Shown here: positions 26,505 through 40,442 of the stretch, piece after piece
Numbering within the stretch: the stretch's first letter is position 1
Layout: every line of letters begins with the position of its first letter
From: Arthrobacter sp. H20
GTDB lineage: Bacteria; Actinomycetota; Actinomycetes; Actinomycetales; Micrococcaceae
Assembly (NCBI RefSeq): GCF_000520515.1
Contig: NZ_KI914759.1
Coordinates: forward strand, 104,183-168,182
Direction: 5' to 3'
Length of the DNA: 64,000 bases
Translations under genes and position numbers: made by a program
Notes under the pieces: model-generated
The model's input: only the letters and a program-made list of their open reading frames with translations
Told to the model about the DNA's origin: nothing
Databases searched by the model: none

Positions 26505-26933
26505 GTGACTGAGCTATTCCTGGACAAATTCCGTGCCCTGGTTCCGGCCTACTTCGATGACCAGTGGTCGGCGGAGGATGGCCTGTCTAAAGAAGAACTC
26601 CAGGACCTCATGGAGGGCCAGAACTTTGACCTTCCACTTGCCCTGCGCGATTTCTATCTCGCTGTCGGAGCCGTCGAAGACATCATGGAGGCCTACCATT
26701 TCTTTTGGGACCCCGACGAGCTGACCATCGAGGATGGACACCTCCTCTTCCTCGAAGACGAAGAGGAAAAGTACACCTGGGGAATCCGCATGGATCAGCT
26801 GGATGTCCCGGATCCCATCATCTGGCGTCGCAACAATGCCCGAGGCACCTGGAAAAGCGAAGAGGGCACGTTCAGCGAATACGTTCTCGACATGTTCGAG
26901 TGGGTGTTCGAGGAAGACGCGGACGAGGAGTGA
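26505..26933 (+). CDS. SMI1/KNR4 (SUKH)-like small acidic protein
   Basis: This is a GTG-started, 142-residue, strongly acidic protein. The motif LPLALRDFYLAVG (about 43-55), followed by an aromatic-rich beta segment (FFWDPDELTIEDGHLLFLEDEEEKYTWGI) and a C-terminal helix (FSEYVLDMFEWVFEED), fits the SUKH fold. SUKH proteins often serve as immunity proteins against contact-dependent toxins, but stand-alone members of other function exist. No toxin or polymorphic-toxin locus is nearby. The end of the gene overlaps the HIT gene start by 4 bp (GTGA), so the two are translationally coupled. Confidence 0.65.
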   Translation: MTELFLDKFRALVPAYFDDQWSAEDGLSKEELQDLMEGQNFDLPLALRDFYLAVGAVEDIMEAYHFFWDPDELTIEDGHLLFLEDEEEKYTWGIRMDQLDVPDPIIWRRNNARGTWKSEEGTFSEYVLDMFEWVFEEDADEE

Positions 26934-27400
26934 CCGAGTGGGTGCGGCACGCGCCTGACGATTACCGGTGCCCCTTCTGCGACCTCGCCGCCGGGGAGTT
27001 CCTGGATCCAAAAAATCTGTGCGAGCCCGGCGATTTGATTTACTCAGACGACTTGGTGTTGGCGTTTATCGCCTCTCACGGCTTCGACCCGCACCCCGGC
27101 CACGTGTTAGTGACCCCCCGGGCCCACTTCGAGTTGCTCTACGAGCTGCCCGACGACGTCGCCGCCCGGATCATGACCGTCACCCGCGATATGGCGGTCG
27201 CCATCAAGCGGGCCTGGTCTCCTGACGGCATCTCCACCCGCCAGCACAATGAGCCTGCTGGCAGCCAACATGTCTGGCACTACCACCAGCATGTCCTCCC
27301 CCGCTGGCACGACGACGGCTTCTACTTCACCCCGAAGCGGCCCGTCGTTGATCCTGCGGTGCGGGCCAGAAAGGCAGCCGAGCTGCGTGCCTACCTGTAG
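26930..27400 (+). CDS. HIT-family nucleotide-binding/hydrolase protein
   Basis: The product has 156 residues from GTG 26930, which overlaps the upstream TGA stop. The catalytic histidine triad is HVWHYHQHV (H117, H119, H121). An N-terminal CPFC motif (C14, C17) with H50 suggests a structural zinc site as in other HIT proteins. HIT enzymes hydrolyse dinucleotide or nucleotide-adduct phosphates in the cytoplasm. Coupling to a SUKH-like gene is unusual but gives no clear functional clue. The first copy of the ~100-bp palindromic repeat begins 22 bp after the stop. Confidence 0.9.
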   Translation: MTEWVRHAPDDYRCPFCDLAAGEFLDPKNLCEPGDLIYSDDLVLAFIASHGFDPHPGHVLVTPRAHFELLYELPDDVAARIMTVTRDMAVAIKRAWSPDGISTRQHNEPAGSQHVWHYHQHVLPRWHDDGFYFTPKRPVVDPAVRARKAAELRAYL

Positions 27401-27421: not shown

Positions 27422-27524
27422 GCGTGTAGGTTTCCCCGGGTTGTGGGGCCAGTTCAGCGCGTTTAGCCCCGACACGCCAATCAATCGCCTGTTCCGGGAC
27501 CAGAATCTGGGGAAACCTGCACGC
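27422..27524 (+). repeat. ~100-bp palindromic repeat, copy 1
   Basis: The outer arms GCGTGTAGGTTTCCCC (27422-27437) and GGGGAAACCTGCACGC (27509-27524) are complementary at 15 of 16 positions. A weaker inner pair is GCGCGTT/ACACGC. The loop aligns with copies at 38148 and 39192 in the same orientation. It separates the HIT gene from the sugar-acid cluster. Confidence 0.85.
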
Positions 27525-27584
27525 CCGCCAGCGGACTGACGTGCCGGATTGCGTCGCTCCCCGGCAGTCATCATCCAAAGACAA

Positions 27585-27647
27585 GGTTTTGAAAACCCAT
27601 TGTGATTTGACACAATCGTGATATAGGATTTCATCAATTCCTATATT
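27585..27647. promoter_or_regulatory. Cluster promoter/operator region with three stacked palindromes
   Basis: Within 63 bp lie GGTTTT-g-AAAACC (27585-27597), ATTGTG-N6-CACAAT (27599-27616) and ATATAGGA-N10-TCCTATAT (27621-27628, 27639-27646). A consensus -35 hexamer TTGACA (27607-27612) overlaps the middle palindrome. They precede the first gene of the sugar-acid cluster and are the likely site for its GntR/FadR-type regulator. Promoter -10 placement is uncertain. Confidence 0.6.
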
Positions 27648-27662
27648 GAAGGGTATTCAACG

Positions 27663-28706
27663 TTGCAGACCCGTCCGACCTTCTCTGTTCCAGATCTTCG
27701 CCAGCTTGCGGCCGTAGCTCTCGAGTGCTGTAACGTCCCACGGACCGACGCCAAACTGACTGCTCGCTCGTTGGTCCAGGCGGACCAGCGCGGCATTCAC
27801 TCCCACGGTTTACTCCGCCTCCCCCTTTATGTCGAGGCCCTTCGGCTCGGCGGGATCAACCCGCGGCCAAACCTGTCGTACTCATCCAAGGCGGATTCAG
27901 TGGCCATCCTCGACGCTGACGCTGCGCTCGGCCAGGTTGCTATGCAGTCGGCAGTTGACAAAGTCATCGAGATCGGTCAAATCCATGGGATCTCTGCGGT
28001 CGCCGTTCAGAACAGCAGTCATTACGGAGCTGGAGCGTTCTGGAGCGATCAGCTAGCGGCGGCCGGGTTCCTTTCCTTCATCACGTCCTCCACCGGACCG
28101 GTGGTCGCGCCTCATGGAGGAACGACGAAGGTTTTGGGAACGAATCCGCTGACGCTTGGGGCACCTGGCTCGTCGGGCTGGCCACTCACGGCTGACCTCG
28201 CTACCAGCAATGGGGCTTACGGCAAGGTGATCGCAGCGCGAAATGAAGGTCAACAACTTCCCGAAGGCTGGGCTGTCGACACCGACGGCAACCCCACCAC
28301 TGATCCAGAAGCAGCCGCAGCAGGCTCCATGATCCCGTTCGGCGACCACAAAGGTTCGGCTGTCTCGGTCCTTCTGGAGGCATTCGCCTCGTCTCTGACC
28401 GATGCTACCTACGCATACGAAACCATCGATATCTGGTCCAACCCAGCATCCCTAATGAACAACGGCCACCTCGTCATCGGGATAAACACCGACGCATTCG
28501 CCGGACGTTCCCACACCGAAGCCCGGGTTGCTGATCTGCAAAAGCGGGTCCGAGACTCCGGTCCGGCCGAGCGCACAGTGCAGGCCCCCGGCGACCCCGA
28601 ACATGCACTGGAAATGGGTGCCACCTCGTCCGTGCACCTGCCCAACTCCACGGCAGACCAGCTGCGTCAGCTCGCACATGAACTTTCTATCCCAACCAAT
28701 TTGTGA
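27663..28706 (+). CDS. Ldh-family NAD(P)-dependent oxidoreductase
   Basis: This 347-residue malate/L-lactate dehydrogenase-type protein (YiaK/YlbC family) has a TTG start at 27663 with GAAGGG about 9 nt upstream. Family features include RGIHSHGLLRLPLYVEALRLGG (about 43-64, containing the catalytic His of SHG), VQNSSHYGAGAFW and GDHKGSAVSVLLEAFAS. Enzymes of this fold reduce or oxidise 2-oxo/2-hydroxy acids such as ureidoglycolate, diketogulonate or lactate. It is first in the cluster, before the TRAP transporter, as yiaK is in other sugar-acid operons. Its likely substrate is an intermediate or product (lactate) of the pathway; this is inferred. Confidence 0.87.
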   Translation: MQTRPTFSVPDLRQLAAVALECCNVPRTDAKLTARSLVQADQRGIHSHGLLRLPLYVEALRLGGINPRPNLSYSSKADSVAILDADAALGQVAMQSAVDKVIEIGQIHGISAVAVQNSSHYGAGAFWSDQLAAAGFLSFITSSTGPVVAPHGGTTKVLGTNPLTLGAPGSSGWPLTADLATSNGAYGKVIAARNEGQQLPEGWAVDTDGNPTTDPEAAAAGSMIPFGDHKGSAVSVLLEAFASSLTDATYAYETIDIWSNPASLMNNGHLVIGINTDAFAGRSHTEARVADLQKRVRDSGPAERTVQAPGDPEHALEMGATSSVHLPNSTADQLRQLAHELSIPTNL

Positions 28707-28769
28707 ACATTCACCCTTCGACAGCACCTATCCCTAACAACTGAAACACTCCCGGAAGGAACTCCAGCA

Positions 28770-29807
28770 ATGAAGCTCGAAAACTCCACCACGTCCAGCC
28801 GTCGTCGTTCCACCACCGCGATCGGTCTCGCCGCCAGCGCAGCTCTCCTGTTGTCAGGCTGCAACGTCGGCACACCCGTGGACCGCGATGAGGTGGGCCA
28901 GGCCGACACCGATGCCAAAACCCTGCGTCTCGCCCATGTCTACGAGGCCGGGCATCCAGTAGAAGAGTGTGGCGTCGCAACCCTCAAGGAGGAACTCGAG
29001 GGTAGCGGACTTCAGATCGAAAGCTTCCCAGCCGCGCAGCTCGGCAACGAATCCGAGTCCCTCGAGCAGGTGGCCTCAGGCGCACTGGATATGGCAATCG
29101 CCGGCCCATCGTTCCTAGGCGTGTGGGAAGAGGACGCGGCCGTACTTGACGGGGCCTACCTGTTTGAGGACGTCGACCACTTCGAGGAAACCGTTGAGGG
29201 GGAGGCCATGGCGACCGTCTTCGACGGCCTCTACGAAAGCTCCGATATTCGTGTCCTCTCAAGCTGGTACTACGGCACACGCCACGTCACCGCCAACAAG
29301 AAGATCAGCACGTCTGCCGACTTCGATGGTCTGAAGATCCGCACTCCTAACGCGCCGCTCTACCTCGAGAACGTCGCAGCTATGGGCGGTACCGCCACGC
29401 CAATGGCCCTGGATGAGGTTTACCTTGCCCTGCAACAGGGGGTTATCGACGCCCAGGAAAACCCAATTCCCACCATCTCTACAGCCAAGTTCAACGAGGT
29501 TCAGGACTACATCAACCTCACCGGACACATGGTTCAGGGAGTCATGATTACAACCGGCCGCACCGTTTATGAGGGATTGACCGATGAGGAGCGTGAAGCG
29601 CTCGACAGCGCGATGGCTGTCGCCGCAGATGACACCCGGGTGTGCATCGAGGAGCAGGAAGAAGGCATTCTCGACGAGTGGCGTGCGGGCGACGGCATCC
29701 AGGTGAACGACGACGTCGACCGGCAGTCTTTTGCTGCCGCTGCCGAGGAAGCAATGCTGCAACAGCCTTGGGGTGAGCTGTACCGGGAAATCAAGGGTGC
29801 CCGGTGA
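28770..29807 (+). CDS. TRAP transporter substrate-binding lipoprotein (DctP family)
   Basis: This 345-residue protein has a lipoprotein signal whose lipobox LLSGC places the lipidated cysteine at 31. A DctP solute-binding domain covers the remainder (LRLAHVYEAGHPVEECGVATLKEELE ... GLKIRTPNAPLYLENVAAMGGTATPMALDEVYLALQQGVIDAQENPIPTI). The conserved Arg in KIRTP (about residue 192) is the carboxylate anchor in this family, so the ligand should be an organic or sugar acid. It stands first in a coupled P-Q-M gene order and delivers substrate to the DctQM membrane unit. Confidence 0.93.
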   Translation: MKLENSTTSSRRRSTTAIGLAASAALLLSGCNVGTPVDRDEVGQADTDAKTLRLAHVYEAGHPVEECGVATLKEELEGSGLQIESFPAAQLGNESESLEQVASGALDMAIAGPSFLGVWEEDAAVLDGAYLFEDVDHFEETVEGEAMATVFDGLYESSDIRVLSSWYYGTRHVTANKKISTSADFDGLKIRTPNAPLYLENVAAMGGTATPMALDEVYLALQQGVIDAQENPIPTISTAKFNEVQDYINLTGHMVQGVMITTGRTVYEGLTDEEREALDSAMAVAADDTRVCIEEQEEGILDEWRAGDGIQVNDDVDRQSFAAAAEEAMLQQPWGELYREIKGAR

Positions 29808-30415
29808 GTTCAGACTCATCGAGGGCCGACGCCAGCAACGAAAACAACATTGCCACGGGCGCCCACGTTCCACACGAACCGGATCTACCGGACTTCGCTG
29901 AACAACGCAGCCGACTCTACCGGGGGCTCGTCAATGTTGAAAGGATCGCATGTTGCACGCTTCTTGTGTCATTGCTCGGGTTGATCATGCTGCAGGTGGT
30001 CAGCCGTTATGTCTTCAATACACCGTTCAGCTGGACTGAAGAACTGGCTCGGTTCATGCTGCTCTGGTTCACGTTCGTTTCCGCCGGTTTTGTCATGGCA
30101 CGGCGTATTCATATCGCCGTCGACCTCCTGGCTAGCAAGCTGGGTCGGAAAGCGACCATCGTGTTGGATACGTTCGCCCTCATAGTGGTCCTTGCCACCG
30201 CGGGAGTACTGGCCGTAGCGGGAGCCGAGTTTGCTGCTGGCGCCAATCGGCTTCTCGCTCCCGCAACGGGTCTGCCGATGAGTGTGGTCTACTTTGCCGC
30301 CGTCACCGGATTTGCGCTCATCTTCATGCACGCTGCCCTGCACATCTTCCTCAACATCCGCTACCCAGAGGTTGTCCCTGATGCAATGGAAAATCTCGAA
30401 CGGGAAGCGGTCTAG
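29804..30415 (+). CDS. TRAP transporter small membrane subunit (DctQ)
   Basis: This 203-residue protein starts at GTG 29804, overlapping the DctP stop by 4 bp. After a cytoplasmic, acidic N-terminal extension of about 45 residues come four membrane helices with the DctQ signature VVSRYVFNTPFSWTEELARFMLLWFTFVSAGFVMARRIHIAVD. DctQ forms the membrane complex with DctM and helps dock the binding protein. The N-terminal extension is longer than in many DctQ proteins. Sodium-coupled import is typical of TRAP systems. Confidence 0.9.
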   Translation: MSSDSSRADASNENNIATGAHVPHEPDLPDFAEQRSRLYRGLVNVERIACCTLLVSLLGLIMLQVVSRYVFNTPFSWTEELARFMLLWFTFVSAGFVMARRIHIAVDLLASKLGRKATIVLDTFALIVVLATAGVLAVAGAEFAAGANRLLAPATGLPMSVVYFAAVTGFALIFMHAALHIFLNIRYPEVVPDAMENLEREAV

Positions 30416-30423
30416 GACACAAT

Positions 30424-31704
30424 ATGACCCTTCTCATCATGATCATCGCGTTGCTGGCGCTACTCGCTCTCCGCGTGCCAGTCTCCTTTGCCTTGCTCAT
30501 CCCCTCAGTCGCCTACGTCATCATGGACCCGACTGCGCGGATCGGCACGGCGGTCCAGCAGACCGTTTCCGGGGTCGACAGCTTTGCCATCCTCGCCGTT
30601 CCCATGTTCATCCTGCTAGGAAACCTCGCCAACGTATCCGGAGTGACTGACAAGCTCTATGACGCCGCCGTGGCCGGTATCGGTCACCTCCGCGGCAGCC
30701 TCGGCTACGTCAACGTGGCCACCAGCTTCGGCTTCTCCTGGATGAGTGGTGCCGCTATAGCCGATGCCGCTGCCATGGGGCGGGTACAAGTCCCGGCAAT
30801 GGTCCAGCGAGGCTACTCCCGTGAATTTGCCTTGGGCGTGACCGGCGCCTCGAGCCTCATAGCGCCCATGATCCCGCCCAGTATCCCGGCTGTCATCTAC
30901 GCAGTCACCGCCGGAGTTTCAGTAGGTGCCCTATTTATGGCTGGGATCCTGCCCGCATTGGTGCTGGTGACGGCCCTATGCCTCACGGTCTGGATTCTCA
31001 TGAGGAAGCAGAACCATCTGCGGTTCCCGAAATCGACCTGGAAAGTGCGGGGCCGCACCACCCTGGCGGCGCTTCCCGCGATGGGGTCAGCGGTTGTCAT
31101 CCTGGGTGGAATCCTCAGCGGTGTCTTCACGCCCACAGAGGCGAGCGGGATTGGCGTCGTCTATATCCTTATCCTTGCCATCGTGTACCGCGCACTAACC
31201 TGGCGGAAAATGTACCGCACCCTGTTGACGACTGTTGAAACCTCCGGCTCAGTGCTATTGATCGTAGCTGCCGCTGCACTGTTCGGGTGGGTTCTTGCCC
31301 GTGAACAGGCGCCGCAGGTTGCAGCAAACCTGATTCTGCAGATCACCGACCAGCCAATCGTGTTCCTGATTCTGGTCAACATCCTGCTCCTGATTGTGGG
31401 CTGCGTCCTGGAACCCACAGCGGCGATCCTGATCCTCGTGCCAGTGTTGCTGCCAGTCGCCGAGACCTTCGGTATCGACCCAGTTCATCTCGGCATCATG
31501 GTGATCTTCAACCTTCTCATCGGATTGATCACACCCCCTGTTGGGCTCGTGCTCTTCGTTCTATCGAGCGTGACCCGAACGCCCGTGCCATCGGTCATCA
31601 AAGGCATCCTCCCGTTCTTCGTCCCGATGGTCGCCACCCTGTTGGTCATCACCTTCGTACCGGCCCTCACAGTCGGCTTACCCACACTATTGGGCTTCCT
31701 CTAG
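30424..31704 (+). CDS. TRAP transporter large permease subunit (DctM)
   Basis: This 426-residue membrane protein has about 12 helices and the standard TRAP large-subunit motifs: FAILAVPMFILLGNLANVSGVTDKLYD, SGAAIADAAAMGRVQVPAM and GASSLIAPMIPPSIPAVIYAV, followed by the second repeat ending NLLIGLITPPVGLVLFVLSSVT. Length is normal for DctM. It begins 8 bp after the DctQ stop. Together with DctP and DctQ it forms a complete high-affinity organic/sugar-acid importer for the adjacent catabolic genes. Presence of an acid importer and absence of a sugar dehydrogenase or lactonase suggests the cell takes up the acid itself. Confidence 0.93.
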   Translation: MTLLIMIIALLALLALRVPVSFALLIPSVAYVIMDPTARIGTAVQQTVSGVDSFAILAVPMFILLGNLANVSGVTDKLYDAAVAGIGHLRGSLGYVNVATSFGFSWMSGAAIADAAAMGRVQVPAMVQRGYSREFALGVTGASSLIAPMIPPSIPAVIYAVTAGVSVGALFMAGILPALVLVTALCLTVWILMRKQNHLRFPKSTWKVRGRTTLAALPAMGSAVVILGGILSGVFTPTEASGIGVVYILILAIVYRALTWRKMYRTLLTTVETSGSVLLIVAAAALFGWVLAREQAPQVAANLILQITDQPIVFLILVNILLLIVGCVLEPTAAILILVPVLLPVAETFGIDPVHLGIMVIFNLLIGLITPPVGLVLFVLSSVTRTPVPSVIKGILPFFVPMVATLLVITFVPALTVGLPTLLGFL

Positions 31705-31737
31705 CCCCCTCCCCCACCTGAATTTCTAGGAGTTCCA

Positions 31738-33042
31738 ATGTCCCGCATCACCTCAGTGCGCACTTCCGATGTGCGTTTCCCAACTTCCTTGGATCTGTCC
31801 GGGTCCGATGCCGTCAACGTCGATCCTGATTATTCGGCCGCCTATGTAGAAATCGCCACTGATGACGGTGAGCGCGGCTACGGTCTGGTCTTCACCTGTG
31901 GGCGGGGAAACGAGATCATTACCGCCGCCATGGACAGCTATGGGGCCCTGCTCATCGGGCAGAACACCGACGACTTGGTCAATAATCTCGGCGACGCTTC
32001 AAGACGTCTAATCCATGACTCGCAGATGCGCTGGCTTGGACCCGAAAAGGGCGTATCCCATATGGCGTGCGGCGGTCTGATCAACGCACTATGGGACATC
32101 CGGGCTCGACGGGAAAATAAGCCCCTGTGGCTCCTTCTGAGCGAGATGCCGGTCGATGAACTGGTCAGCGCAGTCGATTTCACCCATATTTCCAACGCCC
32201 TCACCCCGCAGGATGCCACCGACATCCTGCGGGGTGGGCAGGCCGGCAAAAAGGACCGGATTGCTGAGTTGAAGCAGAACGGATACCCCGCTTACACGAC
32301 CACTCCAGGATGGTTGGGTTACAGCGACGAGAAGCTTGTACGGTTGTCGAAGGAAGCAGTGGCCGATGGTTTCGGCATGATCAAGCTCAAGGTCGCCGGG
32401 AGTATTGCCGATGACCGGCGCCGTCTGTCGCTGGCGCGCGAGGCTGTCGGGCCCAACATTCGGATTGCCATCGATGCCAACCAGCGCTGGGAAGAGCAAG
32501 ACGCCATCGACTGGGTCAACCAACTGCAGGACTTCAACCCCTACTGGATCGAAGAACCGACCAGCACCGACGACATCCTGGCTCACGCTGCGATCCGCAA
32601 AGCGGTTCATCCGGTCAAGGTTGCCACCGGTGAAGCGGTCCAGAGCCGGATCATTTTCAAGCAGCTTCTGCAGGCCGGTTCAATCGACATCATGCAGATT
32701 GACTCGACCCGTGTGGCAGGTGTCAACGAGAACATCGCCAATCTCCTCCTCGCCGCAAAATTCGATACCCCCGTGTGTCCGCACGCGGGCGGCGTCGGCC
32801 TTTGCGAACTGGTGCAGCACTTCTCCTTCTTTGACTACGCGGCGATCACCGGTTCGATGGAGGACAGGGTCATCGAATTCGTTGATCATCTCCACGAGCA
32901 TTTTGCTGAGCCGGTCATTGTCACCGGTGGACGCTACCAGGCACCCAAACGCCCAGGAGTCGGAGCCGAGATGCTTGAAACCTCGACTGCACGGTGGAAC
33001 TTCCCGGGGGGCGCCGGCTGGCAGGACCTTAACGCCAGCTGA
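31738..33042 (+). CDS. L-fuconate dehydratase-like enolase-superfamily enzyme
   Basis: This 434-residue member of the mandelate racemase-like enolase superfamily resembles L-fuconate dehydratase (FucD/ENOSF1) along its length. Catalytic elements are the K-x-K pair in MIKLKVAG (K216, K218), metal ligands D247 in IDANQRW, E272 in YWIEEP and E299 in TGE, and the acid/base H349 in CPHAGGVGLCE. The reaction is loss of water from a sugar acid to give a 2-keto-3-deoxy acid, with L-fuconate the best-known substrate. FucD-type enzymes can also accept related acids such as D-arabinonate. AGGAG precedes the ATG. It is the committed step of the cluster. Confidence 0.88.
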   Translation: MSRITSVRTSDVRFPTSLDLSGSDAVNVDPDYSAAYVEIATDDGERGYGLVFTCGRGNEIITAAMDSYGALLIGQNTDDLVNNLGDASRRLIHDSQMRWLGPEKGVSHMACGGLINALWDIRARRENKPLWLLLSEMPVDELVSAVDFTHISNALTPQDATDILRGGQAGKKDRIAELKQNGYPAYTTTPGWLGYSDEKLVRLSKEAVADGFGMIKLKVAGSIADDRRRLSLAREAVGPNIRIAIDANQRWEEQDAIDWVNQLQDFNPYWIEEPTSTDDILAHAAIRKAVHPVKVATGEAVQSRIIFKQLLQAGSIDIMQIDSTRVAGVNENIANLLLAAKFDTPVCPHAGGVGLCELVQHFSFFDYAAITGSMEDRVIEFVDHLHEHFAEPVIVTGGRYQAPKRPGVGAEMLETSTARWNFPGGAGWQDLNAS

Positions 33043-33069
33043 TCCGCCGTCCAACCAGAAAGGATTAAC

Positions 33070-34569
33070 ATGACCCCCAGTACATTTACCCTCGCCACCA
33101 CAGCCGAGGAAGTAGCTGTAGCAGCGCAAACCGCACACCGTGCTTTCCTAGAGATTGCTGCCGAACCTCCTGCGGTGCGATCGAGCAGGCTGAACGTCAT
33201 CGCGGCAGCCCTGCGCGCTCACGCACCCGAACTCATCGCGCTTGGGCATGCAGACACTCATCTGGCCGAGGCACGTCTGCAGGGCGAGCTCAACCGGACA
33301 GCGTTCCAGCTCGACCTTTTCGCGAACGAGGTCCTCGCAGGAATTCCTCTGGACGCCACCGTTGATCACGCCGATCCTAGCTGGGGCATGGGGCCGCGAC
33401 CCGACATCAGGCGGGTCAACATTCCGCTGGGGGTCGTAGGCGTCTTCGGTGCTTCCAATTTCCCTTTCGCGTTCAGCGTGATGGGCGGGGACTCCGCCGC
33501 GGCACTCGCAGCAGGGTGCGCCGTCCTTCACAAGATTCACAGCGGTCACCGCAAGCTTGCCCTGCGTACGGCAGAGATTGTCGCTGAAGCCCTTGGCGAG
33601 GCCGGTAGCCCCGATGGCTTATTTGCAGTCGTTGACGGCCGGGCTGCTGCTGAAGCCCTGGTGGACCATCCGTTCGTGAAGGCAATTGGCTTCACCGGAT
33701 CAACTGCCGGTGGACGGGCACTGTTCAACCGCGCCAGTGCCCGACCCGAACCAATACCGTTCTACGGTGAGCTCGGAAGCATCAACCCGGTCTTCGTGCT
33801 CCCCAGCGCGTGGGAAAGCCGCTCGGAATCAATTCTCTCCGGATACGCTGCATCGTTTACTGCTGGCATGGGCCAATTCTGCACCAAGCCCGGTGTCCTC
33901 TTTGTGCCGGATTCCCTTGTGGGTGATCAAATTCGCGGGGTGCTTGAACCGATTCTGGAGCAAGCTTCACTGGCTGAGCTACTGACCCCCGGTCTCCGAG
34001 AATCCTTCGGCACCGCCCGGGACGATGTAGCCGCTATGGAGGGCGTCGACGCTCTGGTCTCCGGGTCCGACGATCAGGTGCCCGCTCCAACGGTGCTGAT
34101 CACCGATGCCGCAGCGGTCACACGGAATCCCGAAGTCCTCCGCCACGAAATGTTCGGACCGGCCTCGCTGGTGGTCCGATACCGCAGGGCTGAAGACCTC
34201 CCCGGCCTTGCGTCACTGATGGAAGGCCAACTGACCGCTTCTATCCACGCAGACGAGGCAGACGACGCTTCACTTCTCCTCGACACCTTGACAGGCATCG
34301 CTGGCAGGGTGCTGTGGAACGGCTGGCCGACAGGAGTTACCGTCTCCTACGCGCAGCAGCACGGTGGTCCCTACCCTGCCACAACCTCGAATACCACCTC
34401 GGTGGGGACTGCGGCGATCGGGCGCTTCACCCGCCCGGTGGCATACCAGGATGTTCCTGACCCGCAGCTTCCGGCGTCCCTTCAGGACGCGAACCCCTAT
34501 CGCATCAGTCGCCGCGTCGACGGGGTCTTCGAGGCTGCGGAATTCGGTACGAGAGAGGTCATAGGATGA
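33070..34569 (+). CDS. NADP-type aldehyde dehydrogenase, 2-oxoglutarate semialdehyde dehydrogenase-like
   Basis: This 499-residue ALDH belongs to the group annotated as aldehyde dehydrogenase (NADP+) / 2,5-dioxovalerate dehydrogenase. N130 (GASNFPFAFSVMGGD), E234 (FYGELGSINPVF) and C271 (GMGQFCTKPGVL) are the catalytic residues, and the VLHKIHSGH segment replaces the usual KPS loop. In Weimberg-type pentose pathways this enzyme oxidises 2-oxoglutarate semialdehyde to 2-oxoglutarate. Its stop overlaps the next gene by 4 bp, coupling it to a FAH-fold protein of the kind that makes that semialdehyde. This is good evidence for a 2-oxoglutarate-forming branch in the cluster. Confidence 0.88.
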   Translation: MTPSTFTLATTAEEVAVAAQTAHRAFLEIAAEPPAVRSSRLNVIAAALRAHAPELIALGHADTHLAEARLQGELNRTAFQLDLFANEVLAGIPLDATVDHADPSWGMGPRPDIRRVNIPLGVVGVFGASNFPFAFSVMGGDSAAALAAGCAVLHKIHSGHRKLALRTAEIVAEALGEAGSPDGLFAVVDGRAAAEALVDHPFVKAIGFTGSTAGGRALFNRASARPEPIPFYGELGSINPVFVLPSAWESRSESILSGYAASFTAGMGQFCTKPGVLFVPDSLVGDQIRGVLEPILEQASLAELLTPGLRESFGTARDDVAAMEGVDALVSGSDDQVPAPTVLITDAAAVTRNPEVLRHEMFGPASLVVRYRRAEDLPGLASLMEGQLTASIHADEADDASLLLDTLTGIAGRVLWNGWPTGVTVSYAQQHGGPYPATTSNTTSVGTAAIGRFTRPVAYQDVPDPQLPASLQDANPYRISRRVDGVFEAAEFGTREVIG

Positions 34570-35759
34570 GCCATCTGCTCCCGGAGGACGCTGTTGGTGC
34601 GGTGTTGGTCGGACGGATCTGGGACCCCGCGACAGCGGGGCCTCGACCCGTCCTGGTCGACGGCGATACGTTGATTGACTTGTTCGACCAGTTTGCCACT
34701 ATGTCGGAGCTGCTCAACACCGAAAACCACGTTGTGCTGCTCGACCAGCTCCGCGCCACAACTGCCCGCCGATGGGACCTCGATGAAATTGCCGGTGGCA
34801 CCTTCAGGGTCGATGACGCTCCCGCCATCGACCGCGATGCTCCGCATCTGCTCCCGCCGGTGGACCTGCAGGCGTTGAAAGCGTGCGGTGTCACCTTCGT
34901 TGACAGCCTGATCGAGCGGGTCATTGAGGAACGCTGTGCCGGCGACTTCACCCTCGCCGAGCAGACCCGTTCCCAGGTGCTTGACGCTCTTGGCGGCAGC
35001 CTTACCGGGGTCCGTCCCGGTTCCGACGAAGCTGCCCGCGTCAAAGAGGTACTTGTGCGTGAAGGTTTCTGGTCACAATACCTTGAGGTCGGAATTGGAC
35101 CGGATCCGGAGGTCTTCACCAAAGGGCCGGTCCTATCCGCAGTCGGCACAGGTTCACGCATCGGCATTCCGCCGTTCTCATCATGGAATAATCCGGAGCC
35201 GGAGCTGGTGCTGGTGGTGGACAATCGAGGCCGCATCAAGGGCTGCACGCTGGGCAACGATGTCAATCTTCGTGATGTCGAAGGCCGCAGCGCGCTGCTC
35301 CTGGGGATGGCTAAGGACAACAACGGGTCAACTGCACTTGGACCCTTCATCAGGTTATTCAACGATTCCTACACGATTGATCATGCTCGCCAGGAGACAA
35401 TTCGTCTCACCGTCCGGGGGGCTGATGGGTTCGTGTTGAATGGCACTAACAGCGTCCAGCGGTTAAGCCGTTCCTTTGAAGAACTTGTTGGAGCTGCGTA
35501 CGGTCGTCACCACCAATACCCGGATGGTTTCATCCTTTTCACGGGAACGCTTTTCGCCCCGAACCAGGACCGCGACGCGCCGGGCATGGGATTCACCCAC
35601 AAGACCGGGGATGTAGTGGAGATCGGTAGTGCTCGGCTGGGTACACTGACCAACATGGTGGTACCTACAGAAGATCTTGAACCCTGGGAGTTCGGCATTG
35701 GCGCCCATATGCGCTACCTCCTTGACCAGCGGCAGCCTGTGCTGGACGGTCGACAATGA
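34566..35759 (+). CDS. FAH-family protein, 2-keto-3-deoxy-pentonate dehydratase-like (XylX/KdaD type)
   Basis: This 397-residue protein is longer than hydrolytic FAH enzymes and matches the group that includes Caulobacter XylX and archaeal KdaD. After an N-terminal domain, the FAH core shows VTFVDSLIERV, the metal-binding PEPELVLVVD (E-x-E) and LGNDVNLRDVEGRSALLLGMAKDNNGSTALGPF. These enzymes dehydrate 2-keto-3-deoxy-pentonates to 2-oxoglutarate semialdehyde. It is translationally coupled on both sides (ATGA overlaps) with the semialdehyde dehydrogenase upstream and the GntR regulator downstream. Assignment within FAH is from length, motifs and neighbours. Confidence 0.78.
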   Translation: MSHLLPEDAVGAVLVGRIWDPATAGPRPVLVDGDTLIDLFDQFATMSELLNTENHVVLLDQLRATTARRWDLDEIAGGTFRVDDAPAIDRDAPHLLPPVDLQALKACGVTFVDSLIERVIEERCAGDFTLAEQTRSQVLDALGGSLTGVRPGSDEAARVKEVLVREGFWSQYLEVGIGPDPEVFTKGPVLSAVGTGSRIGIPPFSSWNNPEPELVLVVDNRGRIKGCTLGNDVNLRDVEGRSALLLGMAKDNNGSTALGPFIRLFNDSYTIDHARQETIRLTVRGADGFVLNGTNSVQRLSRSFEELVGAAYGRHHQYPDGFILFTGTLFAPNQDRDAPGMGFTHKTGDVVEIGSARLGTLTNMVVPTEDLEPWEFGIGAHMRYLLDQRQPVLDGRQ

Positions 35760-36469
35760 CTGAAACGTTAGCGCGCGACTTCGAGCACCGGGGCAGGTCC
35801 GGCGCTGAGGTCTATTGGACACTGCGTGCAAAGATTCTTGATTTGCAGCTGCCCCCGGACGCGAAAGTCAATATCGATGCTTTGGTTCGTGAACTTGGCG
35901 TTTCGCAGACACCAATCCGCGAGGCGCTAAGCCAGCTCGAAGGGGACCGGCTAATTGTCAAGACTCCAGGCAAGGGGTACCGGACCACGGCGCTTCTGGG
36001 CACGACTGAACTGCGTGAGCTATTCGAATTCCGTCTTCTCATCGAACCGTGGGCAGCGCGGGCGGCAGCAGTGAACCGACTCAGTAATCCTTCCCGGTTT
36101 CTCACTGCTTCGCTTGATGACTTCGAGTCGGGCACAGCCGAGCACACTGCCGTCCGACATCAGCTAGTAGCCCACGACACTGTTTTTCATGACCGGATCC
36201 TATCGGCCAGCAGCAACGAGTTTGCTCTGCACGCGTACCGGGCAACGCACTGCCACCTTCACCTTTTCCGGCTGCATCCCGCCGATTATCAGGGGACCAG
36301 CACCGTCGAGGAGCACCGTCGGATTGTCGACGCTATCGCCGCGTGTGACCCAGATGCTGCTGAGGAAGCGATGCATCGACATCTCATTGACGCCTACCAC
36401 CGCTTTGCCGAGGCATTCACCCAGGAGGAATCGGGATTGCGGCTGCCGCACCCAGCCAATCTCTGCTGA
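35756..36469 (+). CDS. GntR-family regulator, FadR/FCD subgroup
   Basis: This 237-residue protein has an N-terminal winged helix (about 20-85, VNIDALVRELGVSQTPIREALSQLEGDRLIVKTPGKGY) and a C-terminal all-helical FCD domain (about 95-225). Asp/His residues in HQLVAHDTVFHDRILSASSNEF, and later in EEHRRIVDAI and HRHLIDAYHRF, probably bind a metal and a carboxylate ligand. Overlap with the FAH-family gene puts it inside the operon. It is the likely pathway-specific repressor, relieved by a sugar acid or 2-keto-3-deoxy acid. Candidate targets are the stacked palindromes at 27585-27647. Confidence 0.9.
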   Translation: MTETLARDFEHRGRSGAEVYWTLRAKILDLQLPPDAKVNIDALVRELGVSQTPIREALSQLEGDRLIVKTPGKGYRTTALLGTTELRELFEFRLLIEPWAARAAAVNRLSNPSRFLTASLDDFESGTAEHTAVRHQLVAHDTVFHDRILSASSNEFALHAYRATHCHLHLFRLHPADYQGTSTVEEHRRIVDAIAACDPDAAEEAMHRHLIDAYHRFAEAFTQEESGLRLPHPANLC

Positions 36470-36497
36470 AGCTCTCCGCTAACGAACAAGGACTAAA

Positions 36498-37253
36498 ATG
36501 ACAGATTCTTTTGAGGGCATCCGCGCCCTGGTCACCGGCGGCGCTTCTGGGATTGGCGCTGCAGTGACTGCTGCGTTGACCGCGCGCGGAGCACACGTGG
36601 CGGTGCTTGATATCCGGCCCGATGGTCTACCGCCTGGTGTTGTCGGCTACACCTGTGACATCGGCAATAGTCAGTCTGTTGATGAAGCAGTCGCTGCTGC
36701 AGCGCTGGAATTGGGGGGGATCGACGTCGTTATCAACAATGCAGGAGTTGGAGCGGCCGGGAGCGTGGCAGATAACGACGACGACGAATGGCTCAGGGTG
36801 CTCAACATCAACGTGGTCGGAATTGCAAGGGTGTCGAGGGCAGCTCTGCCCCACCTGCGAGAATCCCGTTGCCCAGCGATCGTGAACACCTCGTCTGTCG
36901 CAGCCACCCATGGTCTTCCACAGCGTGCCCTGTACTCGGCAAGCAAGGGTGCTGTGTCAGCGCTGACCCGCGCCATGGCAGCCGACCATATGCGGGAGCG
37001 CATACGCGTGAACTGCGTCAATCCCGGTACGGCTGACACGCCGTGGGTCGCCAGGCTCCTCGACGCCGCAGATGATCCGTCGGCCGAGCGCCAGGCGCTG
37101 GAGGCTCGCCAACCCCACGGTCGGCTGGTATCTGCTGGCGAAGTAGCCCAATCGGTTTTGTTCCTGGCGGATCCCGCCAATGGATCGACCACTGGCACCT
37201 CTCTGGCAGTTGATGGCGGTATGCATAGCCTGCTGCTGCGGCCTGACGCTTAA
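36498..37253 (+). CDS. SDR dehydrogenase, 2-keto-3-deoxy-L-fuconate dehydrogenase-like
   Basis: This 251-residue classical short-chain dehydrogenase has the cofactor motif VTGGASGIGAAV (about 12-23), NNAGVGAAG, the catalytic Ser in NTSSVAATHG and Tyr/Lys in YSASKGAV (about 154-161), plus the C-terminal GTSLAVDGGM. Between a FucD-like dehydratase and a diketo-acid-type FAH hydrolase, the natural role is NAD-dependent oxidation of 2-keto-3-deoxy-L-fuconate to the 2,4-diketo acid. AAGGA sits 5 nt before the ATG. Substrate assignment is by context; SDR sequence alone does not define it. Confidence 0.82.
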   Translation: MTDSFEGIRALVTGGASGIGAAVTAALTARGAHVAVLDIRPDGLPPGVVGYTCDIGNSQSVDEAVAAAALELGGIDVVINNAGVGAAGSVADNDDDEWLRVLNINVVGIARVSRAALPHLRESRCPAIVNTSSVAATHGLPQRALYSASKGAVSALTRAMAADHMRERIRVNCVNPGTADTPWVARLLDAADDPSAERQALEARQPHGRLVSAGEVAQSVLFLADPANGSTTGTSLAVDGGMHSLLLRPDA

Positions 37254-37290
37254 AAATTCGTTGACGACTAAAACTAGAAGGAGTCCCAAG

Positions 37291-38142
37291 ATGGAACTGA
37301 TGCGACTAGGCGAGCCCGGACGGGAAATCCCGGCGGTGCGCCAGGACGGGGAAACCTATGACCTCCGCGGACTTACCGCCGACATTACCGGCGTGTTCCT
37401 CGGGAAGGAGGGCATCGGCCAGGTGCGTAGCGCATTGGCTGCCGGCACTCTTCCCACACTGGAGCGTGCCGCAACCATGCGGGTCGGAGCTCCGCTGACG
37501 GATATCGGTGCCGTCGTCTGCGTGGGCCAGAACTATGCGGCGCACGCTGCCGAGACCGGCGACCAGCCGCCCAAGGCCCCAATCATCTTCTTCAAACATC
37601 CCAATACGGTCGTCGGGCCGAACGACGACGTCGTCATCCCGCCGGGCGCGCAGAAGGTTGATTGGGAGGTGGAGCTTGCCGTGGTCATCGGCAAGCGGGC
37701 GTCCTATCTTTCGGGCGTCGACGAGGCCCTCGACTGCATCGCCGGGTTCACGATCAGCAATGATGTCTCGGAACGCGACTACCAGATCGGGCATTCGGGC
37801 GGTCAGTGGTCCAAGGGCAAGTGCGCGCCGACCTTCAACCCGATCGGACCAGCCTTGGTGCCGGCCTCTGACGTGTCAGATCCGCAGACACTCCGGCTCT
37901 ATTCAACGGTCAACGGCGACTCCAGACAGGATTCCACGACAGCTGACATGGTGTTCAGCGTCGCCGAGATCATTCACAACCTCTCCCAGTACATGGCTCT
38001 CGATCCCGGAGACGTGGTGAACACCGGCACTCCCGAGGGTGTTGCCCTGTCCGGCCGTTTCCCCTATCTGGCTTCCGGAGACATCATGACGATCGGCATT
38101 GAGGGTCTGGGGGAGCAGCGCCAACGCGTCGTCGGGTCCTGA
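37291..38142 (+). CDS. FAH-family hydrolase, 2,4-diketo-3-deoxy-L-fuconate hydrolase-like
   Basis: This protein has 283 residues from ATG 37291, chosen because AGAAGGAG is 7 nt upstream; the frame is open back into the SDR gene but without such a site. FAH core motifs are VGQNYAAHAAETG (about 72-84), the metal ligands in VDWEVELAVVIGK (E-x-E, about 124-136), NDVSERDYQ, and GDVVNTGTPEGV. Short FAH enzymes of this kind cleave acyl-pyruvates. In the non-phosphorylating L-fucose route the product pair is pyruvate and L-lactate. It is the last gene of the cluster, 5 bp before the second palindromic repeat. Confidence 0.85.
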   Translation: MELMRLGEPGREIPAVRQDGETYDLRGLTADITGVFLGKEGIGQVRSALAAGTLPTLERAATMRVGAPLTDIGAVVCVGQNYAAHAAETGDQPPKAPIIFFKHPNTVVGPNDDVVIPPGAQKVDWEVELAVVIGKRASYLSGVDEALDCIAGFTISNDVSERDYQIGHSGGQWSKGKCAPTFNPIGPALVPASDVSDPQTLRLYSTVNGDSRQDSTTADMVFSVAEIIHNLSQYMALDPGDVVNTGTPEGVALSGRFPYLASGDIMTIGIEGLGEQRQRVVGS

Positions 38143-38147
38143 CCGGA

Positions 38148-38247
38148 GCAGGTTTCCCCAGGTTCTGGGACTCATTTGGCGTGTTAGGGCCCAACACGCC
38201 GTTAATCTGACCGATTCTGGCTCAGTACCTGGGGAAACCTGCACGCC
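38148..38247 (+). repeat. ~100-bp palindromic repeat, copy 2
   Basis: Perfect 16-bp outer arms GCAGGTTTCCCCAGGT (38148-38163) and ACCTGGGGAAACCTGC (38227-38242) surround an inner near-perfect palindrome GGCGTGTT-a-GGGCCC-AACACGCC (38178-38200). It fills the gap between the FAH hydrolase stop and the converging DUF559 gene. The same CACGCC tail and an AGCGGA motif follow here and after copy 1. Confidence 0.9.
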
Positions 38248-38248
38248 G

Positions 38249-39073
38249 TCAGCGGATCGCCCGGCCGGAGAGGACCTGACGGACCTCCCGGAGGACCTCG
38301 GCCGGGTGGAACATGATGTCCTCGTAGCTGTAGCGCAGGACCAGATATCCGCCCGCGATGGTCGAGTTGTTCCGTCGGAGGTCCCGCCGGAGTGCTCGCC
38401 GGTCTGAATGGTAGGCAGCGCCGTCCACCTCAATGACCAGGAAGCCCTCCAGGAGAAAATCCACCCTGCCGACGCCGGCCAGCTGGACCTGAGTTTCGAC
38501 GTGAAATCCGGCGCCCCGGAACAAGACCCGTGCCACGACTTCGAGGGGAGACTCGGCGGAACATGTCACTAGGCCCAGCGCCGCGCGGGCCGGGGCGTTG
38601 CGGTCGCCGGGTAGTCGATCCAGGAGAAAGCTGCGGATCGTGTCGCCCCGACGAAGTGAACTTTCGACCATGACTGCTGCCTCCAGCGGCGGAAGGCAGC
38701 GCAGGGCATGAATCAGGACATCCACCACGCCCACCAGCGGCGCCCGCGGATGGACCGGGACGGTGCGCTCACGGTGATTGGTGAAACCCGTACCGTGCCC
38801 ATGGTTGCAGCTCAGGTGTAGTCTGCTCGCTGGGTAGAGAGACCACAGGCCGTAGACCTTCGCGGCCGATAGGCAAGTGAGAAGTCCGTTGTTGAGGATC
38901 GCGGCAACGTAGTCCGGCGGCGCGTCAGGCAGTGCAACAACTCCCGTGCGGAGTCTGACCATCTCGCCCAGCGCTAGATGGCGGTTGAGCTGTCGTCGAC
39001 TTACCCCGCACTGCAGTACCTCCCGGGTGCGCGCTACCGATCCCAGCCCCCGCAGGGTGTTGACTGCATCCAT
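38249..39073 (-). CDS. AbiEi-like N-terminus fused to DUF559 (Vsr-like nuclease fold) protein
   Basis: This 274-residue protein has an N-terminal winged-helix/AbiEi-like part (TREVLQCGVSRRQLNRHLALGEMVRLRTGVVALPD, about 16-50). A C-terminal DUF559 domain (about 175-270) carries the PD-(D/E)XK-type core VDFLLEGFLVIEVDG (D205, E215, D217) and later YHSD and LRYSYEDI, as in very-short-patch-repair-like nucleases. Stand-alone members are common in actinobacteria and their role is not known. Here the gene is bracketed by two copies of the palindromic repeat, 1 bp past its stop and about 119 bp before its start. No cognate AbiEii-type toxin gene is adjacent. Confidence 0.8.
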   Translation of the reverse strand: MDAVNTLRGLGSVARTREVLQCGVSRRQLNRHLALGEMVRLRTGVVALPDAPPDYVAAILNNGLLTCLSAAKVYGLWSLYPASRLHLSCNHGHGTGFTNHRERTVPVHPRAPLVGVVDVLIHALRCLPPLEAAVMVESSLRRGDTIRSFLLDRLPGDRNAPARAALGLVTCSAESPLEVVARVLFRGAGFHVETQVQLAGVGRVDFLLEGFLVIEVDGAAYHSDRRALRRDLRRNNSTIAGGYLVLRYSYEDIMFHPAEVLREVRQVLSGRAIR

Positions 39074-39191: not shown

Positions 39192-39293
39192 GTGCAGGTT
39201 TCCCCAGGTTCTAGCCGACCCGGCGCGTGTCGGTGGGCAACACGCCGTCGAACTGGGCCTTTGGGGCGGAGAACCTGGGGAGACTTGCACGCC
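39192..39293 (+). repeat. ~100-bp palindromic repeat, copy 3
   Basis: Outer arms start GTGCAGGTTTCCCCAGGTTC (39192 on) and end at GGGGAGACTTGCAC (to 39290); the 21-nt arms pair at 19 positions. The inner pair is GCGTGT (39225-39230) and ACACGC (39240-39245). Orientation and the central ACACGCC match copies 1 and 2. It lies between the divergent-side end of the DUF559 gene and the polyprenyl synthase stop. Confidence 0.87.
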
Positions 39294-39338: not shown

Positions 39339-40442
39339 CTAGACGTCCCGGGTGACCACGGCCTGAGCAAAGGCCGCCAGCGCCTGCTTGACCGTGCTGT
39401 CCGGCAGCGGCTCGAGGGCGGCGACGGCGTCGTCAGCCCACTGCTGAGCCACTTCCCAGGCCGCCTGGGTCGATGAGTGAGCACTCACTGCTGCGACTGC
39501 TGTAGCCAGCGCCTCGTCAGAGGTGAGATCCCCGTCCACCAGGTCCAGGACGGCGACTGCTGAGTCATCCCCTGCTGCTGCGGCCTGCCGGACCAGGAGT
39601 ATCGGCAGGGTAGGGACACCTTCACGGAGGTCGGTCCCCGGCGACTTCCCGGAGATGACCTTGACGCCTGTGACGTCGATGACGTCGTCGGCAAGCTGGA
39701 ATGCCACTCCAACCCTTTCCCCATACGAGAGCATCACATCGATAACTGACTGCGGGGCCTGGCCGAACAGCGCGCCGAGCTGGCCGGAAGCCGCGACCAG
39801 CGACCCTGTCTTGTCGGCGATGACCGACAGGTAGTGCTCCACCGGATCTTCGTCCTCGCGGGGCCCGACCGTCTCATGGAGCTGTCCCAGGCAAAGCCGT
39901 TCAAAGGTCCGCGCCTGGATGCCCAGGGCCTGCCCACCGAGCTCGGACACCAGAATTGACGCCCGGGCGAAGATCAGGTCCCCGGTCAGGATGGCTACCG
40001 AGTTACCCCACACCTCGTGCGCCGTCGGGGCGCCGCGGCGGTAGGGCGCCGAGTCCATGACGTCGTCGTGATAGAGCGTGGCGAGGTGTGTCAGTTCGAC
40101 GACGACGGCGGCCTGCACCACCTCGGGCCGGCTGGAATCGCCGAGGTGCGACGCAAGAATGGTCAGCAGCGGGCGGATCCTCTTCCCGCCGGCTTCAACT
40201 AGGTGACGACTGGTGGCGTCGGCAAGTGGATCGGAGCTGGCGATGGCTTCACGCAGCTGCTTCTCCACCTTCGCGAGGCAGGTTGAGACGGCCGGCCCCA
40301 GCACAGGATCGTCTGCTATCAGAGCGAACCCCGGCGGCAGCCGAAGCCCGGTGGCGATTGCACCGGTGGCAGTGTCGACATCGACGCCGTCGGAGCGCGG
40401 GTGCCCAGCGCTGGTCCAGCCGGGGGTAGCAGATTCTCTCAC
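39339..40442 (-). CDS. Polyprenyl diphosphate synthase (menaquinone side chain)
   Basis: The 367-residue trans-prenyltransferase has the first Asp-rich motif in LATLYHDDVMDSA (about 120-132, DDxxD) and the second in FQLADDVIDVTG (about 250-261). GGKRIRPLLTILA and the KTGSLVAASGQLGA lysine loop are also present. It extends isopentenyl units to a long all-trans chain, probably the menaquinone tail. The GTG start at 40442 lies 9 bp after the reductase stop with no clear ribosome site; a shorter N-terminus is possible. It is third in the menG - reductase - synthase operon, which supports quinone rather than carotenoid synthesis. Confidence 0.9.
   Translation of the reverse strand: MRESATPGWTSAGHPRSDGVDVDTATGAIATGLRLPPGFALIADDPVLGPAVSTCLAKVEKQLREAIASSDPLADATSRHLVEAGGKRIRPLLTILASHLGDSSRPEVVQAAVVVELTHLATLYHDDVMDSAPYRRGAPTAHEVWGNSVAILTGDLIFARASILVSELGGQALGIQARTFERLCLGQLHETVGPREDEDPVEHYLSVIADKTGSLVAASGQLGALFGQAPQSVIDVMLSYGERVGVAFQLADDVIDVTGVKVISGKSPGTDLREGVPTLPILLVRQAAAAGDDSAVAVLDLVDGDLTSDEALATAVAAVSAHSSTQAAWEVAQQWADDAVAALEPLPDSTVKQALAAFAQAVVTRDV

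Follow-up and report, generated by a model that had tools for sequence, protein, structure and literature searches.

Repeats flanking a sugar-acid operon of Arthrobacter sp. H20 are members of a palindrome family bracketing a neighbouring AbiEi-Vsr nuclease-like gene

A palindromic repeat of about 100 bp, in the following designated R, occurs three times around a sugar-acid type operon and an adjacent nuclease-like gene of Arthrobacter sp. H20 (genome G000). The window, i.e. the whole analysed stretch of 64,000 nucleotides (G000:C88:104183-168182), harbours in succession a HIT-family gene which forms the left neighbour of the slot (26924..27400, plus strand; assigned by Pfam annotation and locus comparison), the outer repeat R1 (27422..27525, minus strand), the ten genes of the operon (27663-38142), R2 (38148..38247, minus strand), a gene for an AbiEi-like plus Vsr/MTES_1575 (DUF559) nuclease-like protein of 274 residues (38249..39073, minus strand), R3 (39192..39290, minus strand) and a polyprenyl synthetase gene (39339..40442, minus strand), which adjoins the slot on its right side at each of the 14 genus loci compared. 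R1 was located by repeat search and by its palindrome, R2 by repeat search and by the flank test described below. The repeat search, which yields a two-copy family at the setting used, aligns positions 27428-27525 with 38150-38247 in the same orientation (71% identity over 98 nt, longest exact match 19 bp). Including the outer arm bases, the two imperfect palindromes extend over 27422-27524 and 38148-38242. Two same-orientation palindromic repeats flanking ten genes had been described in an earlier note on this DNA (the original prediction), and R1 and R2 confirm this description, including the trailing CACGCC common to both and the start of the second copy about 5 bp past the last stop codon (38142). 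The first copy precedes the first gene as stated, its distance to the start codon at 27663 being 137 bp instead of 139 bp. R3, however, had been missed. It is oriented as R1 and R2 and lies 0.9 kb past R2 at the far side of the DUF559 gene, which is thus bracketed by R2 (downstream) and R3 (upstream). The arm word GCAGGTTTCCC is found eight times in the window if up to one mismatch is allowed (1.39 expected; this count is reached by none of 100 shuffles), and more copies of R are present on contigs C9, C11, C57 and C78 of the same genome. One copy on C11 (G000:C11:58202-58395, loci L001/L007) contains an internal run of N, perhaps due to the hairpin stopping assembly. No relevant Rfam family was detected over positions 20000-45000 of the window at E values up to 1.

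Comparison within the genus reveals to which gene the repeats belong. Group-A homologues of the nuclease-like protein occupy 39 places at a minimum identity of 49%, two pieces in G033 and two in G028 each being counted once. At 33 + 5 of these places (a piece of 52 residues in G020 was left out) we aligned the DNA before the gene with the DNA after it, gapped and on the same strand, using p<0.01 as threshold and equally spaced windows as controls. Matching direct repeats are present on both sides of 30 of the 38 Arthrobacter DUF559 homologues tested versus 2 of 128 control windows; all 30 come from the main set of 33 and none from the further set of five. The aligned downstream part begins no more than 20 bp from the stop codon in 26 of the 33. 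The real unit is R-nuclease-R with both copies of R in the same orientation, plus solo copies of R elsewhere. The DUF559 gene, regarded in the original prediction as unrelated to the sugar-acid cluster, is the very gene the repeats belong to. At one cassette (L058 in G019) three tandem copies of R, about 118 bp apart, are observed upstream of the nuclease gene.

The encoded protein appears to consist of an AbiEi-like domain joined to a putative nuclease domain of the Vsr/I-Bth0305I type. Pfam assigns to it MTES_1575/DUF559 and AbiEi domains only; the AbiEi N-terminal family PF13338 stays below the cut-off for the window protein and exceeds it for the homologue at L070. A structure model built from a 37-row alignment (predicted local distance difference test score, pLDDT, 92.6) retrieves by Foldseek the AbiEi antitoxin 6y8q, the homing endonuclease I-Bth0305I (3r3p, E 6.4e-4) and Vsr (1cw0), and a profile search matches the nuclease part to 3r3p as well (E 0.015). 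Five residues (E178, D205, E215, D217 and H222) do not vary in any of 30 group-A members, nor in any of the 37 sequences of a wider set; catalytic residues we take to be among them. PMC3710099 names the MTES_1575 domain a Vsr-type restriction endonuclease. While the catalytic domain resembles that of the EDxHD/Vsr-like enzyme I-Bth0305I in profile, fold and conserved acidic and histidine residues, the present gene is, in the loci read, free-standing in the chromosome and not placed in an intron or intein, possesses an AbiEi-like N-terminus and is bracketed by palindromes. Likewise, the N-terminal domain resembles AbiEi, the antitoxin of the type IV toxin-antitoxin system AbiE, by Pfam PF13338, PADLOC and the fold of 6y8q, yet the protein differs from it by its C-terminal nuclease domain. 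A bicistronic abiEi-abiEii arrangement is not seen, as Pfam recognises no AbiEii/nucleotidyltransferase toxin among the neighbouring HIT, operon and polyprenyl synthetase genes. These observations bear on the notion of a stand-alone defence or toxin-antitoxin-like gene whose repeats are scars left by repeated acquisition and loss in a defence hot spot. Weak PADLOC matches of the window protein to AbiEi (2.6e-6) and to the Hhe end (9.4e-5) agree with it, as does the exchange of slot contents between species; we nevertheless give it little credence, since no partner toxin is recognised by Pfam among the annotated neighbours, a homing endonuclease is likewise among the profile and fold matches of the nuclease domain, and the solo repeats would need another explanation.

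The ten genes, all on the plus strand, were confirmed by domain annotation as a cluster of the sugar-acid type. They encode an Ldh_2 family dehydrogenase (27663..28706), the solute-binding protein DctP (28770..29807), the small permease DctQ (29804..30415) and the large permease DctM (30424..31704) of a tripartite ATP-independent periplasmic (TRAP) transporter, a mandelate racemase/muconate lactonizing (MR_MLE; sugar-acid dehydratase-like) enzyme (31738..33042), an aldehyde dehydrogenase (33070..34569), a first FAA-hydrolase fold protein (34566..35759), a GntR/FCD regulator (35756..36469), an SDR dehydrogenase (36498..37253) and a second FAA-hydrolase fold protein (37288..38142). NCBIfam does not settle the substrate, as no equivalog cut-off is reached. 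Of the flanking genes formerly named, HIT and DUF559/MTES_1575 stand, while the open reading frame (ORF) designated “SUKH” has no Pfam match at E 0.001. By eye, an inverted repeat ATATAGGA-n10-TCCTATAT (27621..27646, no strand assigned) in front of the operon is a candidate GntR operator, and a similar TATAGGAT...CCTATAT element is visible upstream of the operon in other carriers. The last gene of the operon has a paralogue at G000:C1:169709-170557 (80% DNA identity), and in G029 (L043, 14600-16630) it is apparently duplicated in tandem, the copies being adjoined by an assembly gap. Elsewhere in the window, a long hairpin which is not of the R type (2247-2342; 46-nt arms, 83% complementary, 4-nt loop) is located between a TetR-like ORF and the next one, and a 110-nt direct repeat of 76% identity (3718-3827 and 17082-17191) probably reflects paralogous genes because its first copy lies inside an aldehyde dehydrogenase-like ORF.

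The original prediction took the ten genes for a module bounded by R1 and R2 which excises or arrives by homologous recombination. Among 57 genomes searched, 35 of them (including G000) from the genus, the operon is present in eight genus genomes. In G005 it occupies the same slot, where R1 is degenerate and the DUF559 gene, R2 and R3 are gone; only six bases resembling the start of R2 (GCAGGT) follow the operon before the polyprenyl synthetase flank begins. In the six remaining carriers (G001, G017, G018, G019, G029 and G031) it is found at other places, away from the HIT gene, the match running from about the start of the first gene to the end of the last. An R core within 400 bp of the operon is found in none of these six, i.e. 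the repeats do not travel with the ten genes, and the cluster without flanking repeats, named beforehand as an observation that would speak against the module, does exist. G018 contains an unrelated short hairpin with 11-bp arms nearby. In blastn comparisons of the operon flanks among the six, G029 and G031 have downstream DNA in common and are the only pair with shared flanks; by eye, G001 and G017 are alike just downstream of the operon. The operon thus sits at several places in the genus, and only in G000 is it enclosed by two recognisable copies of R. The coincidence of the edges of operon and repeats (within 5 bp at the right and 137 bp at the left side) speaks for a module, and the predicted empty site has indeed been found: G008 (Arthrobacter sp. 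260) and G010 show HIT, a single palindrome and DUF559 without the ten genes. As these relatives already carry R at the site, a repeat that pre-dates the operon there, part of the second suggestion of the original prediction, is supported. Yet, given their 71% identity and longest exact run of 19 bp, we judge R1 and R2 a poor substrate for homologous excision, and in most of the genus sample it is the nuclease gene that such repeats bracket. Hence, R1 and R2 probably do not delimit a mobile operon, and we consider the excisable module improbable.

Copies of R retrieved by the core search consist of a core of about 21 nt (GGCGTGTC...GACACG) and of arms which are specific to the lineage. An exact search for the core gives matches in 34 of 38 genus genomes, compared to one or two matches in 5 of 38 for the reversed control. 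In the 18 cassettes with a core recognised on both sides, arm similarity amounts to 34.1 within the same cassette versus 16.5 between cassettes, a difference reached in none of 20000 permutations. For 45 copies, the pairing of left with right arm scores 13.3 for the own partner, 8.0 for arms of other genomes and 6.8 for shuffles; since arms pair best with their own partners, pairing is kept while the sequence changes. The similarity of R follows the identity of the nuclease (Mantel r 0.65, reached in 0 of 5000 permutations; 31 cassettes, also used for the tree, with L072 and L074 left out). The mean R score is 126 for nucleases of at least 65% identity in different genomes (80 pairs) and 52 for those below 60% (275 pairs). 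Two cassettes in one genome score only 28-53 (6 pairs, 51-66% identical), and therefore the sharing of a genome does not make copies of R alike. A constant core with variable ends is the reverse of the architecture of attC sites. This disfavours an interpretation of the repeats as integron attC sites and of HIT-R-operon-R-nuclease-R as an integron-like cassette array, to which imperfect same-orientation hairpins of about 100 nt at the 3' ends of genes bear some resemblance. We hold this interpretation to be extremely improbable. Identity with attC was rejected, as ends of the attC type (RYYYAAC/GTTRRRY) are present in 0 of 45 copies of R; no search aimed at an integron integrase was made.

Solo copies tend to resemble the cassette of their own genome. 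In a sample of 49 solos from 48 chosen loci, which does not comprise every solo, the cassette of the own genome ranks first for 18 (1.8 expected) and among the top five of 27 genomes for 42, the median rank being 2 of 27. The nine solos inspected in G022 look, by eye, like variant forms of the arms found at its locus-IV cassette, and for six of these nine the own genome ranks top. One solo of G000 is, by eye, present in G005, G008 and G010 and absent from G018, G022 and G059. Genomes with an intact nuclease contain more cores than those without it (5.4 in 28 versus 2.4 in 10, p 0.018), a difference of little weight as the cassettes' own copies are part of the count and symmetric sites enter it twice.

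The nuclease gene itself is found at about six places in the genus at 49-81% identity; these loci were grouped by blastn, tblastx being uninformative in GC-rich DNA. The nuclease tree requires six changes of place for six loci, the minimum being five, and therefore the gene has moved. The nucleases of slot I (HIT/polyprenyl synthetase) do not form one clade: the window nuclease clusters with locus-II nucleases (96/94), apart from most others of its own slot, and under the starred branches the slot-I label has to change three times. In 14 genus genomes chosen by the HIT gene for a first reading, the nuclease is present in this slot in nine (G000, G006, G008, G009, G010, G018, G019, G032 and G034) and absent in five (G004, G005, G021, G024 and G029), where, by eye, a single palindrome is left in G024 and G029 and a degenerate one in G021. 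Locus II contains R-nuclease-R in five genomes, a single R in G022 and another palindrome in G029. In G025 the same slot (L134, G025:C2, 1300-2430) is occupied by a different AbiEi-nuclease-like gene of 313 residues, with a weak MTES_1575 match and AbiEi-like by PADLOC, which is located between two near-perfect palindromes (GTTGAGTTGGCAGGACAC... and GTTGATTTGGCAGGACAC...) of a sequence other than R. Cassettes keep R on both sides, R also stands alone, and a given slot may hold the nuclease, a single R, no R, or a different nuclease with different palindromes. An origin from phages or plasmids was rejected, a homologue being found in 2 of 50,697 phage and 3 of 72,556 plasmid records (E 1e-5).

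Beyond the genus, many homologues from Demequina and Microbacterium and a few others show palindromes on both sides whose arms differ from those of Arthrobacter, the arms matching each other in several of them (e.g. L181, L184, L188, L192, L197 and L208). In eight Microbacterium genomes whose gene has GCACAACTCCTGCA-like arms on at least one side, this word occurs 10-29 times in forward and 13-36 times in reverse direction (up to one mismatch), compared to 0-3 and 0-4 times in six genomes with other arms (four Microbacterium, two Demequina); the reversed control gives 0-5 matches in all 14. Comparison by eye of two of these genomes, G063 and G066, reveals that the number of R copies differs and that one kind of palindrome replaces another at the same place. 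At L277 (G066:C11, 16279-16731) the array has expanded to three near-identical tandem copies of Microbacterium R versus one in G063. A more distant group-B nuclease (36% identity) is encoded in G000 itself (L079, G000:C20, 1442-2257), where it is bracketed by direct repeats of about 67 bp which contain a palindrome centred on TCTAGA, unlike R; two of four group-B loci pass the flank test.

On balance, we regard R as a palindromic element tied to the DUF559-type nuclease, the two most likely forming a palindrome-nuclease element reminiscent of repetitive extragenic palindromes (REPs) and their REP-associated tyrosine transposases (RAYTs) albeit with an unrelated enzyme. As described in PMC3116915, the RAYT/REPIN system comprises a few-copy enzyme gene flanked by palindromes, with dispersed copies, a repeat type of its own for each enzyme and apparent co-evolution; REPs measure about 20 to about 60 bp and occur in hundreds per genome. 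The present element shares the palindromes flanking an enzyme gene and the dispersed matching extragenic copies, whose intergenic position was seen by eye at several sites. It differs in that its enzyme is of the AbiEi-Vsr nuclease-like type, while RAYT (TnpAREP) is an HUH/Y1 transposase, in that R is about 100 bp long and occurs in few copies in Arthrobacter (some tens of arm words in Microbacterium), and in that the copies on either side of the gene are direct repeats. IS200/IS605 elements such as IS608, too, possess an imperfect palindrome at each end (PMC3116915); in the protein studied here, however, no Y1-type (IS200-like) transposase family was detected among the Pfam or Foldseek matches.

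If R and the nuclease do form such an element, the nuclease presumably moves the repeats. The AbiEi-like domain may bind the palindrome, a role we propose because AbiEi binds inverted repeats and thereby autoregulates (PMC7319586). The Vsr/homing-type domain would then nick or cut DNA at R, and repair or transfer would copy R, alone or together with the nuclease gene, into further intergenic sites; by recombination between the two copies of R, the gene could be lost and a solo R remain. In the window, R2-nuclease-R3 would represent the resident cassette. Adjacent to R1, a possible remnant of the 3' end of a DUF559 gene (27526..27548, minus strand; suggestive in a shuffle test) has CAGCGGA at offset 3, compared to offset 2 beside R2. 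R1 and the possible remnant of a second nuclease suggest that a tandem cassette once occupied the present site of the operon, which would have come to lie between the two repeats R1 and R2 before the split of G000 and G005.

The strongest competing explanation takes the repeats for bidirectional terminators or autoregulatory operators which are simply carried along while the gene moves by ordinary recombination, the protein not mobilising R. The upstream copy of R could serve as an operator, since domains of the AbiEi type recognise inverted repeats in the promoters of their own genes, as the autoregulation of AbiEi illustrates (PMC7319586). In agreement with a terminator, the genes on either side of R are convergent at locus I and, by eye, at locus II. 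By eye, relatives exhibit R-like or plain terminator-like hairpins at one solo site of G022, and R may therefore persist as a terminator. By itself, however, this explanation accounts neither for the dispersed solo copies with the same arms, nor for a downstream copy of the same sequence as the upstream copy, nor for the differing arms of two cassettes in one genome. We consider it rather unlikely.

Besides the terminator-like hairpins at the G022 site, several observations weigh against a palindrome-nuclease element. Three full-length genes fail the flank test (L116, p 0.060; L055, p 0.013; L073 in G023, p 0.076), although AATCCTGCA arms are visible on both sides of the last one. So do the truncated L072, the partial L076 (G015, p 0.013) and the decayed L123, L124 and L125 (p 0.037, 0.28 and 0.39). 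Outside the genus sample, where 53 of 80 loci were submitted and eight were dropped as truncated, only 19 of 45 pass at p<0.01 versus 11 of 90 control windows, and all five loci with an identity of 44-45% (Arthrobacter sp. SO5, A. liuii, Paenarthrobacter and Pseudarthrobacter) fail. A strict ungapped hairpin finder detects palindromes on both sides of only 10 of 33 cassettes (upstream 20 of 33, downstream 15 of 33; control windows 32 and 15 of 660). Seven of the 49 solos rank the cassette of their own genome worse than fifth, and eight genomes contain, by eye, empty locus-V sites without R. The three slot-I label changes may stem from a single gain plus two losses, so that recurrent entry into the same slot is not proven. 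Finally, the remnant beside R1 is weak, as 195 of 5000 shuffles score as high in G000 (14 of 5000 for its counterpart in G005).

A wider interpretation, which we advance tentatively and deem possible though short of probable, is that of a new mobile palindrome system of Actinomycetota: an AbiEi-Vsr nuclease, akin to homing endonucleases but not to HUH transposases, would recognise lineage-specific hairpins of about 100 nt and spread them, together with its own gene, through intergenic space, leaving solo copies behind, as a convergent counterpart of REP/RAYT. So read, it would comprise at least three sequence classes, i.e. group A with the GGCGTGTC core, the TCTAGA-centred group B and the class at locus II of G025. 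In the portion of the open-access literature available to us, no report was found which ties palindromes to DUF559, MTES_1575 or AbiEi-nuclease genes.

The locus cautions against taking similar repeats on both sides of an operon for its ends as a matter of course. Moreover, REP-like palindromes are common in bacteria, and to our knowledge the enzymes so far linked to their spread belong to one class. If the interpretation given here is true, a second, unrelated enzyme would show the same genomic habits, rendering the spread and persistence of such repeats testable by comparison, and a function would be suggested for actinobacterial genes labelled DUF559 or AbiEi-domain proteins.

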